From a virus: 40,967 bases of DNA. The stretch spans positions 1-40,967 of the IMG/VR virus record IMGVR_UViG_3300010375_000360, one strand, 5' to 3'. The stretch's first letter is position 1. Each line of letters starts with the position of its first letter. The notes under the pieces are model-generated. The model made no database searches and was not told the origin of the DNA. It saw nothing but the letters and a program-made list of their open reading frames with translations. This document shows, piece by piece, positions 5,008 to 12,919 of the stretch. The translations under genes and the position numbers were made by a program.

Positions 5008-5009
5008 CG

Positions 5010-5054
5010 AGCGGAAGACGAGGTTCGAACCCGCGACCCTCAGCTTGGGAAGCT
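5010..5054 (-). other. Attachment site: 3' half of tRNA-Gly (anticodon CCC)
   Basis: On the minus strand the bases give an anticodon loop TTCCCAA closed by AGC/GCT, a variable loop, a T-arm with GGTTCGAAC, and the acceptor strand CTTCCGC with discriminator T. This is the usual 3' half of a bacterial tRNA-Gly(CCC). Upstream of the anticodon loop (above about 5054) the sequence is unrelated to a tRNA: the 5' anticodon strand reads AAAGC where TCAGC would be needed, and no D-arm follows. Integration into a tRNA anticodon loop is a well-known tyrosine-integrase habit. The tRNA's own terminator lies to the left, so the phage lies to the right and the functional tRNA should be rebuilt at the far end, outside the window. 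Confidence 0.8.
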
Positions 5055-5141
5055 TTGATTGCGTTTCTTCAGTTTTGTGAACTATTGATAATTAAGTATC
5101 TAAGAATATTTATTAATATAATTTGAGGCTATTTTTTTCCG

Positions 5142-9012: not shown

Positions 9013-9360
9013 GTGGACAAATCAACGCAGGTACTCTACATACATCTCGCAATATGGATTGCTCTCTTTGTAGTAGCCTATTTTCTTGTAGCCTTTAATG
9101 TAGGCAAAAAGAAAGAAGATAAGGAGCAAGTCAGGCTGAACCGCATGAAACGCGACTACTTCGAACTTAAACACGGAATCGAAATCTGCTGCAATGAAAA
9201 TACGCTGATGTTGTTCGAAGTCAGCATGGATCAGTTCTTCGAAAGGTATCACGTATCGGGCAAAAAGAATAAAGAACTACTTCAGTATTATACATTCCTC
9301 TTACGGGCTAGTTCCGAAAAACGCAATGAATTCAATGGAATACAGGAAGTCACGGCGTAA
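9013..9360 (+). CDS. Membrane-anchored protein, 115 residues
   Basis: The start is GTG at 9013, three bases after the previous stop; no ATG precedes the membrane helix. One transmembrane segment (HLAIWIALFVVAYFLVAF, about residues 11-28) is followed by a charged helical cytoplasmic part (KKKEDKEQVRLNRMKRDYF) and a soluble C-terminus. Function not recognised. Confidence 0.65.
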   Translation: MDKSTQVLYIHLAIWIALFVVAYFLVAFNVGKKKEDKEQVRLNRMKRDYFELKHGIEICCNENTLMLFEVSMDQFFERYHVSGKKNKELLQYYTFLLRASSEKRNEFNGIQEVTA

Positions 9361-9469
9361 GGAATATGCGCCTCCTGGTTACGTGATTGCAAGCATATGT
9401 GTGGTACTGGTAACGATGGTAGTAGTTGCAGTAGTCATCAGGATTCTAAAAATATTACTGTTCTCATAA
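9335..9469 (+). CDS. Small membrane protein, 44 residues
   Basis: This ORF overlaps the end of the previous gene by 26 bases. It has a basic N-terminus (MEYRKSRRKEYAPPG) and one strong transmembrane helix (VIASICVVLVTMVVVAVVI). Overlap and gene order support translation. The role is unknown; a holin-like function is conceivable but unsupported. Confidence 0.5.
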   Translation: MEYRKSRRKEYAPPGYVIASICVVLVTMVVVAVVIRILKILLFS

Positions 9470-9582
9470 GTATAGGGTTTTTTTAGGTAAACGATACCGG
9501 CCCTTTTCAGGTTTTTAAAAAGATTAAACGCTCTTTCTATATGGCAAAGCAAAAGTCGCGGTGTTTCTACATCGTGACAAAT

Positions 9583-9721
9583 GGTAGGGTAGCTCAGATG
9601 GTAGAGCGCAGGAAACCGGCAAAACTGTTCTTACGAAAGTAAGCGCCATTAGGTGGGTAAATCCAACAGTTCAGTTTTTTCGGCAGTACTGAGGTCGAAC
9701 GTTCGAGTCGTTCCCATACCT
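9583..9721 (+). tRNA. tRNA-like gene with a greatly expanded anticodon arm
   Basis: The 5' part is canonical: acceptor strand GGTAGGG, TA, and a D-arm GCTC-AGATGGTA-GAGC. So is the 3' part: AGGTC variable loop, T-arm GAACG-TTCGAGT-CGTTC, acceptor CCATACC (one G-A mismatch against the 5' strand), and no encoded CCA. Between them lie 83 bases where 17 are expected. These fold into a long arm: outer CAG/CTG, CCG/CGG, AAAACTG/CAGTTTT or AACTGTT/AACAGTT, with two side hairpins, CTTAC-GAAA-GTAAG (9630-9643) and CGCC-ATTA-GGTG (9644-9655). The extra piece is flanked by near-identical 11-mers, CGGCAAAACTG (9617-9627) and CGGCAGTACTG (9681-9691), 64 bases apart; removing one interval leaves 75 bases. 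No normal anticodon with U33 results, so a decoding role is doubtful. Confidence 0.5.
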
Positions 9722-9749
9722 CGTTTTTAAAGGGTAACGATCAACAAAG

Positions 9750-9778
9750 GCCGGTTTGTTCTCAGGCTGGCTTCTTTT
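9750..9778 (+). terminator. Terminator-like hairpin
   Basis: GCCGG (9750-9754) pairs with CTGGC (9767-9771, one G-T pair), then TTCTTTT. It follows the tRNA-like element by 28 bases. Confidence 0.45.
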
Positions 9779-9818
9779 AAAACTCTTTCGCTCAACTACC
9801 ATCTGCCATTAAGATGGT

Positions 9819-9897
9819 GAGCGCATTGGCTAAGAGCCGGGTCTTTTGAACCGACCCATAATAAACGGTTCACGCTTCGCCTCCGTCAAGGGCGCTC
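9819..9897 (+). ncRNA. Second, degenerate cloverleaf-like fold
   Basis: GAGCGC (9819-9824) pairs with GCGCTC (9892-9897) over a 79-base span, the size of a tRNA. Inside are GGCT-AAG-AGCC, then GGGTC/GACCC closing a nine-base loop that includes TTTTGAA (as in tRNA-Gln UUG), and ACGG/CCGT. The third arm has a 14-base loop and no normal T-loop, so this is not a standard tRNA. The same GAGCG strand can instead pair upstream with CGCTC at 9789-9793, giving two exclusive folds. Confidence 0.35.
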
Positions 9898-9940
9898 CCG
9901 GAAACGGGGTGTATAGTTCTTTCCAAATTTCTCGAATTAG

Positions 9941-9970
9941 GTCCCGGTGCTCTATGCCGGGACTATTTTA
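9941..9970 (+). terminator. Intrinsic terminator
   Basis: GTCCCGG (9941-9947) pairs with CCGGGAC (9957-9963) around a nine-base loop, then TATTTTA. It ends the structured region 26 bases before the next gene. Confidence 0.6.
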
Positions 9971-9995
9971 AAAAGTTAGTCAAATACTCATTTAT

Positions 9996-10349
9996 ATGGA
10001 AATTCAAACCGTCAGTTATCATAAGGTTTTTAATCTTGGCAATTACAGCAACGAAAAGATCGGCGTTGAAATTAAGTTATCCGCCGGTGAGGATCCTTTA
10101 GATGCTTTTGCTGAAGCAAAAAAGCTGGTAGAAAAAAGCCATAAATTCTTTCAGGATTTACCAACCTACGAACGGGCAAAGAAGATTGTATCAGATGCTG
10201 ATAATAACATGGGCAGAGATGTGAAAGCAGCGCAAGAGGTAATGAAGGCATTTGAAAGCAATTATCCCGATTACATGGGAAGATTCATGCCGGTAAGCAG
10301 ACAAATTGAACAGGGTGTCTTGCATGATGAAGACTTTGATGACAATTAA
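9996..10349 (+). CDS. Conserved phage protein of unknown function, 117 residues
   Basis: The N-terminal pattern VFNLGNYSNEKIGVEIKLSA followed by GEDPLDAFAEAKKLVEKSH resembles a small alpha/beta protein often seen in phage early regions next to recombination genes, though its function is not known to me. The C-terminus is helical and acidic. It starts after a terminator and opens the recombination module. Confidence 0.7.
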   Translation: MEIQTVSYHKVFNLGNYSNEKIGVEIKLSAGEDPLDAFAEAKKLVEKSHKFFQDLPTYERAKKIVSDADNNMGRDVKAAQEVMKAFESNYPDYMGRFMPVSRQIEQGVLHDEDFDDN

Positions 10350-12217: not shown

Positions 12218-12919
12218 ATGGAACAAAATACCCCTATTGTCGAATCCAACGCTAAAAATTTTGAGGATCTTAAAAATGATCTTATATCTCTAGCCGAAGA
12301 AAACGACGCATGTAGCGATGCGGCTGAACAATTGGAATCGGCTGAAACCATAGAATGCCTTTTGAAAGTCGTAAAGGATAATATCTCGTGGTGCTGCCAA
12401 AATATTCCTGAATGCGCTGATAAATTAGTCGCCTGTTTTGGCAATGAATTACTTCTTAAATATAATATCTATGTTTCAGGAGTGCATAATATCAACGTAA
12501 CCGAAGCCAATACCGTCATCGTTTTATGCGGCAGTTCATCTGCAACCGTGAAGACATGGGACAGTTCATCTGCAACCGTGGAGACATGGGGCAGTTCATC
12601 TGCAACCGTGGAGACATGGGGCAGTTCATCTGCAACCGTGGAGACATGGGGCAGTTCATCTGCAACCGTGAAGACATGCGGCAGTTCATCTGCAACCGTG
12701 GAGACATGGGGCAGTTCATCTGCAACCGTGGAGACATGGGGCAGTTCATCTGCAACCGTGAAGACATGCGCCAGTTCATCTGCCAATATTGGTCGTTACT
12801 TTTCTTCGAAACTCGAATATTCACTAGGCTACGGTATTTGTCCGTTGATCAAGCATTTAACGGAAAAGAAAGTATTTATCAAGACTTCCGAATTTGAAAT
12901 CGTGCAGGTTTCTCAATAA
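12218..12919 (+). CDS. Decapeptide-repeat (beta-solenoid-like) protein
   Basis: The 233-residue protein has three parts. Residues 1-105 are acidic and helical (CLLKVVKDNISWCCQNI; KLVACFGNELLLKYNIYVSG). Then come eight near-identical 10-residue units of the form SSSATVETWG (DNA 12541-12780), preceded by one partial unit. The last 45 residues are non-repetitive. Units vary only at E/K, W/C and G/D/A. Short alternating Ser/Thr/Val repeats of this sort are expected to coil as a beta-helix. It lies between the exonuclease and NinG-like genes. Similar repeat proteins occur in phages and plasmids; the function is unknown to me. Confidence 0.75.
   Translation: MEQNTPIVESNAKNFEDLKNDLISLAEENDACSDAAEQLESAETIECLLKVVKDNISWCCQNIPECADKLVACFGNELLLKYNIYVSGVHNINVTEANTVIVLCGSSSATVKTWDSSSATVETWGSSSATVETWGSSSATVETWGSSSATVKTCGSSSATVETWGSSSATVETWGSSSATVKTCASSSANIGRYFSSKLEYSLGYGICPLIKHLTEKKVFIKTSEFEIVQVSQ
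12531..12783 (+). repeat. Tandem 30 bp repeat, eight units
   Basis: Each unit is TGCAACCGTGRAGACATGSG followed by R- or C-CAGTTCATC (30 bases), exactly ten codons. Eight full units run 12541-12780, with a leading GCAGTTCATC. Differences are a handful of single bases (A/G at base 11, G/C at base 19, and one A and one C at base 21). Copy number changes would keep the reading frame. Confidence 0.95.

Follow-up and report, generated by a model that had tools for sequence, protein, structure and literature searches.

A tRNA-like RNA with an enlarged anticodon arm in a Chitinophagaceae prophage: a candidate non-decoding tRNA mimic

What can a tRNA body encode when its anticodon arm has been replaced by a much larger domain: an interrupted tRNA, the remnant of one, a piece of a longer transcript, or an RNA that uses the tRNA scaffold for another end? 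This question is raised by a locus in a 40,967-nt stretch of viral DNA from IMG/VR, hereafter the window, which consists of a prophage and a host flank. The flank carries MiaB (1321–2757), which shares 86% identity with its counterpart in a Chitinophagaceae genome (G033), and the relatives of the portal protein are for the most part from Bacteroidota phages; the carrier is a Chitinophagaceae (Bacteroidota) prophage. The 3' part of a tRNA-Gly(CCC) at 5009–5055 on the minus strand probably marks the attachment site at the left border of the prophage. The locus lies in a gap of 635 nt between the genes at 9013–9360 and 9996–10349, and ARAGORN found no ordinary tRNA gene anywhere in the window. 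Downstream, 12218–12919 encodes a protein with about ten near-identical SSSATVETWG-type repeats, in a region where several frames are open on both strands.

When tRNA bodies were sought with the middle left free, the locus was the sole match in the window, and 40 dinucleotide-shuffled windows gave none. The tRNA body at this position is beyond chance. The elements of the RNA are as follows.

9583–9721, plus strand: tRNA-like RNA gene with an enlarged anticodon arm, 139 nt, the unique tRNA-body match; fold stability of the full length against shuffles, z = −3.0
9583–9589, plus strand: acceptor 5' strand GGTAGGG, pairing at 6 of 7 positions with CCATACC (9714–9720), with a G5×A68 mismatch
9592–9607, plus strand: D-arm GCTC-AGATGGTA-GAGC, 4 of 4 pairs, with A14, G15, G18G19 and A21
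9609–9691, plus strand: 83-nt domain replacing the anticodon arm, closed by CAG (9609–9611) and CTG (9689–9691)
9616–9627, plus strand: 5' strand CCGGCAAAACTG of a long helix, an inverted repeat whose 3' strand CAGTTTTTTCGG lies at 9672–9683
9630–9643, plus strand: hairpin CTTAC-GAAA-GTAAG, from folding
9644–9655, plus strand: hairpin CGCC-ATTA-GGTG, from folding
9697–9713, plus strand: T-arm GAACG-TTCGAGT-CGTTC, 5 of 5 pairs

The variable loop is AGGTC, position 73 is T (9721), and the tertiary bases that hold the elbow are kept (U8–A14, G15–C48, G18G19 with U55C56, and U54–A58). Both the nearly canonical acceptor, D- and T-arms and the 83 bases in place of a 17-base anticodon arm, as described in the initial annotation, are therefore borne out by the pairing, the core bases and the unique scan match. 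The features of a decoding tRNA are present in the acceptor, D- and T-arms and in the core, and absent where a 5-bp anticodon stem and a 7-nt loop with U33 would stand. A check with tRNA models, suggested in the same annotation, came out negative: neither ARAGORN nor Rfam called a tRNA at 9583–9721, and the Rfam tRNA, YrlA and group I models gave no match to the RNA at E values up to 10. Intact insert-bearing tRNAs score 43–56 bits with the Rfam tRNA model, and the failure of this model here even at E 10 is what a true loss of the anticodon arm would lead one to expect. When the 139 nt are folded without constraint, the minimum-energy structure (−43.7 kcal/mol) pairs the D and T regions differently and does not keep the arms; it is favored by 6.7 kcal/mol over the imposed cloverleaf (−37.0 kcal/mol).

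We also considered a copy of a host tRNA. The 5' half around the D-arm resembles host tRNA-Met (L287), and a 22-nt stretch of the T-arm region is identical to host tRNA-Arg(TCT) (L291). The tRNAs read from the nearest host genome match at no more than 25 of 31 positions in the 5' half and 28 of 42 in the 3' half, and this origin was rejected.

The enlarged arm exceeds the normal 17-nt arm by 66 nt. Its long helix forms 11 of 12 pairs, with a single C·U mismatch, and encloses three small hairpins, the third of which is GG-TAAAT-CC. The insert bounded by this helix is steadier than its shuffles (z = −2.7; 4 of 300 shuffles were equally good), which confirms the earlier claim that it has a fold of its own. 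The 11-base near-repeats said to flank it fared otherwise. The two sequences, CGGCAAAACTG and CGGCAGTACTG, agree at 9 of 11 bases, and one such pair was seen against a shuffle mean of 1.27, so that they are at chance level; the 64 nt given as the interval between them is their start-to-start spacing, and the actual gap is 53 nt.

An interrupted tRNA should become whole when the interruption is removed. We surveyed viral and genome collections for tRNA bodies with 66–96 nt between the D-arm and the T-arm, which yielded at least 120 stretches from the former and at least 116 from the latter; some of the matches are archaeal (L192, L202 and L203). Phages and bacteria commonly carry tRNAs whose anticodon stem holds an insert of 40–65 nt. 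Among the matches listed, 105 bodies with a perfect acceptor and T-stem served as an excision test set. Removal of a single segment gave a perfect tRNA (5/5 stem pairs, U33 and a purine at 37) in 69 of these 105 listed bodies, compared with 1.1% of shuffled inserts, and the excision point in the restored tRNAs was mostly after position 28 or 29. For the window RNA, no single excision leaves a 17-nt arm with U33, and its best excision score of 5.0 is equalled by 42% of the shuffles of its own insert. Excision between the chance-level near-repeats was rejected as well: the product carries one mismatch, a loop of 9 nt and no U33. The remark that no anticodon with U33 is evident is in line with these results. 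Splicing to a 75-base, tRNA-sized RNA, which had been proposed from the sequence, is not supported, because the repeats are due to chance, no excision yields U33 and the motifs of the recurrent inserts are absent.

These motifs come from two classes of insert. The class 1 insert, a hairpin followed by C-N-GCAA with a length of about 40–50 nt, interrupts the anticodon stem behind position 28 or 29. The tRNAs that carry it come from phages and Lachnospiraceae genomes, are perfect in all other respects, and regain the stem and U33 when it is removed. An alignment of 27 examples shows no variation in the motif or U33 and two-sided compensatory changes in every one of the 7 hairpin pairs. Examples are found at L010, L119, L024, L068, L072, L106, L111, L146, L170, L172, L186, L206, L264 and other loci. 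In the loci scanned, Rfam 15 names just the surrounding tRNA and no insert family, and the open-access literature searched gave no account of short inserts in phage tRNAs. Class 1 may represent a tRNA intron, or an RNA module embedded in tRNAs, of a kind not yet described. The class 2 insert ends in UUACUUC or similar. Like the class 1 tRNAs, the window RNA joins a tRNA body to an extra domain that starts near position 29 in the anticodon stem; unlike them, it has neither a covarying hairpin with C-N-GCAA nor an arm with U33 upon removal. The class 1 model does not match 9583–9721 at E 10 with filters off, the hairpin and C-N-GCAA are absent, and so is the class 2 motif from the insert. Membership in class 1, class 2/YrlA or group I was rejected, with no model or motif match.

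Group I introns are longer than 200 nt and contain a catalytic core. Those in bacterial and phage tRNA genes likewise interrupt the anticodon arm, but the window RNA has just 66 nt beyond a normal arm, no core and no Rfam match, in accord with the earlier statement that it is too short for a normal group I intron. The bulge-helix-bulge introns of archaea are also short and also occur at non-canonical positions of the anticodon stem; the window, in contrast, is a Bacteroidota prophage, and removal of its insert restores no anticodon arm. An excisable element of a kind that the survey did not otherwise turn up, lodged in a tRNA, would be consistent with the frequency of removable short inserts in otherwise perfect tRNAs and with the start of the window insert near the same place (after CAG, positions 27–29). 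We nevertheless regard it as improbable, given the failed excision, the missing class 1, class 2, YrlA and group I matches, and the 66-nt length, which roughly equals or exceeds that of the longest of those inserts (mostly 40–65).

A further possibility is that the locus gives no free RNA at all. The interval 9361–9995 is without an annotatable gene and is structured on both sides of the tRNA-like gene.

9555–9578, plus strand: hairpin GTCGCGGTG..CATCGTGAC directly 5' of the tRNA-like RNA, resembling another conserved terminator of the host genomes and lacking its T-run
9724–9784, plus strand: Chitinophagaceae-type terminator (AAAGGGTACGATCAACAA, hairpin and T-rich tail), from sequence likeness and folding
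9790–9972, plus strand: second structured non-coding stretch (z −3.2), ending in a terminator-like hairpin GTCCCGG..CCGGGAC

These structures, together with a search for the sigma-70 consensus that found no such promoter close upstream, speak for a structured untranslated region between the two neighboring genes, with a tRNA-like fold that regulates host tRNA-processing enzymes or is cleaved by them. However, the 61 nt that start right after T73 match, at 80–86%, a terminator found behind many genes in several Chitinophagaceae genomes. A terminator-type element at this point means that the 3' end of the RNA is defined by sequence, and it separates the tRNA-like RNA from the next gene. The untranslated-region reading is thus quite unlikely. 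The host-type terminator stands in tandem in places in the Chitinophagaceae genomes; in L269–L286 the conserved AAAGGGTACGATCAACAA leader precedes intrinsic terminators, in places as 3–5 tandem copies, and the genes ahead of these tandem copies have ends that resemble secretion-sorting domains. At the start of the second structured stretch, CTACCATCTG (9796–9805) is exactly complementary to the D-loop region CAGATGGTAG (9595–9604).

Relatives of the RNA were sought in several ways. None of the relatives reached through the flanking proteins, the terminase or the portal carries the window RNA. A GCAG-specific pattern run against all viral contigs found three real tRNAs, all of class 1, and a longer-insert pattern found, among the matches listed, tandem tRNAs and one unrelated candidate; neither returned a relative of the window arm, and both assume a fixed D-arm consensus that divergent relatives could escape. 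A blastn search of 399 Chitinophagaceae genomes gave nothing beyond copies of the terminator, fragments of tRNAs and a single match of 34 nt in a probable coding region. As a sequence feature the tRNA-like gene is real but single-copy, with no homologue found by the searches run.

A single copy whose relatives were not found is also what a decaying prophage tRNA would look like, its anticodon arm broken by insertion or rearrangement and its present function lost. The acceptor mismatch G5×A68 and a closing helix reduced to CAG/CTG fit such decay, as does a window without an ordinary tRNA gene, whereas functional phage tRNAs often occur in sets. On the other hand, everything but the anticodon arm is intact, including the tertiary core, the insert folds better than its shuffles, the terminator is precisely placed, and no target-site duplication is seen, the near-repeats being at chance level. 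We consider decay to be on the unlikely side.

The known RNAs that the locus resembles most in plan are the bacterial Y RNAs. YrlA (RF02553), the partner of the TROVE protein Ro60/Rsr, also combines a tRNA-like module of acceptor, D-arm and T-arm with a long stem that replaces the anticodon arm, and it does not decode. It is circularly permuted, whereas the window RNA is unpermuted, and its own conserved Ro60-binding stem (GGCGAAUGC...GGAACUAC / GUUCC...AACUUGUCGCC) is absent from the window RNA. The module and the long stem of a Y RNA are present, and a match to the YrlA model or the Ro60 stem is not. No TROVE (Ro60/Rsr) gene was seen among the window proteins or in the nearest host genome, which belongs to a relative of the actual host. 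We would file the window RNA as Y-RNA-like in architecture rather than as a Y RNA. It has been proposed that the tRNA-like domain of YrlA competitively inhibits an anticodon nuclease (PMC7790460).

Taken with the preceding results, this architecture leads us to favor, tentatively and with somewhat less than even confidence, a locus that encodes a non-decoding tRNA mimic of Y-RNA-like plan, which RNase P and RNase Z would mature and whose arm would bind a partner. A mimic was among the possibilities raised in the initial annotation, and it survives the intact body and the failed excision, its role being suggested by analogy. We prefer it to a broken tRNA because decay would not respect the tertiary core, and to an intron because intron removal should restore decoding; only the anticodon arm departs while the core bases stay. 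The insert that folds better than its shuffles and the host-type terminator just after the RNA also speak for it, and Y RNAs offer a precedent. The G5×A68 mismatch, the non-cloverleaf free fold, the lack of a YrlA or Y-RNA model match, the lack of a TROVE gene among the window proteins and in the nearest host genome, and the lack of a homologue in the searches run argue against it. Transcription of the mimic would accompany that of the early prophage genes, starting from upstream phage genes, and would stop near 9784 at the host-type terminator of the RNA. Trimming like that of a tRNA may then follow, by host RNase P and RNase Z/CCA-adding enzyme, because the acceptor, D-arm, T-arm and tertiary contacts are intact. 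Replacement of the anticodon arm by the long helix and three small hairpins means that no codon would be read. The tRNA half could stabilize the molecule and offer tRNA-binding proteins a point of contact, and the partner of the mimic, a protein or an RNA, may be bound through the body, the enlarged arm or both. The decoy for host tRNA enzymes or anticodon nucleases suggested in the initial annotation is conceivable; more speculatively, the mimic may titrate an enzyme that targets tRNAs, for example an anticodon nuclease of the host. It is doubtful that this is the first phage-encoded unpermuted tRNA mimic, with a 12-position helix and a three-hairpin head, that engages a factor after tRNA maturation; such a host or phage factor could be, for example, a tRNA-cutting defense enzyme, which would be blocked.

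If the RNA is made and matured, a phage uses the tRNA scaffold beyond decoding and outside the Ro60/Y-RNA family, which would open a way to learn how phages employ tRNA-like RNAs in their contest with the host for its tRNAs. Finders that assume a standard anticodon arm miss many insert-bearing tRNAs and tRNA mimics of phages and bacteria, and the side findings on inserts and arrays may carry greater weight than the window RNA.

The class 2 insert can most likely be identified with the Ro60-binding stem of bacterial Y RNAs, as indicated by one family match and by neighborhood: the Rfam YrlA model matches one class 2 array at 92.5 bits, and the distance between array and TROVE (Ro60) gene is about 1.1 kb in Chitinophaga S165 and 1.7 kb in another genome. 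The Bacteroidota class 2 arrays themselves score below the YrlA cut-off. Permuted tRNA fragments in class 2 arrays are most likely Y-RNA tRNA-like modules; a new permuted-tRNA system was rejected, because the YrlA match and the adjoining TROVE genes point to Y RNAs. A Bacteroidota sub-type (L137, L253, L254, L256 and L257) has a tRNA insert of about 40 nt of the form ATTACC-loop-GGTCAA...TTACTTC; G105 carries this sub-type and has no TROVE match, so that the partner may not be Ro60.

Many different tRNA-like fragments are strung together in long arrays at L177/L250, L252, L183, L178, L133, L204, L223, L189 and L240. Permutation is frequent among the fragments (the 3' half comes first, then a short loop, then the 5' half), Y-RNA-like stems stand between them, and ARAGORN misses nearly all of them. 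These arrays look like diverse Y RNAs, each mimicking a different tRNA. In the L223 array, a 23S rRNA-like fragment AACGGTCCTAAGGTAGCG (helix 69–71 region) stands between the same stem elements, shortly after about 2235–2700. Permuted tRNA halves also occur in the phage contigs L035 (about 777), L044 (about 1452, minus strand), L013 (about 6212) and L062 (about 455, minus strand), for example CACTGCT-CTTCGG-AGTAGTG, and are flanked there by insert-like sequence rather than by recognizable class 2 stems.
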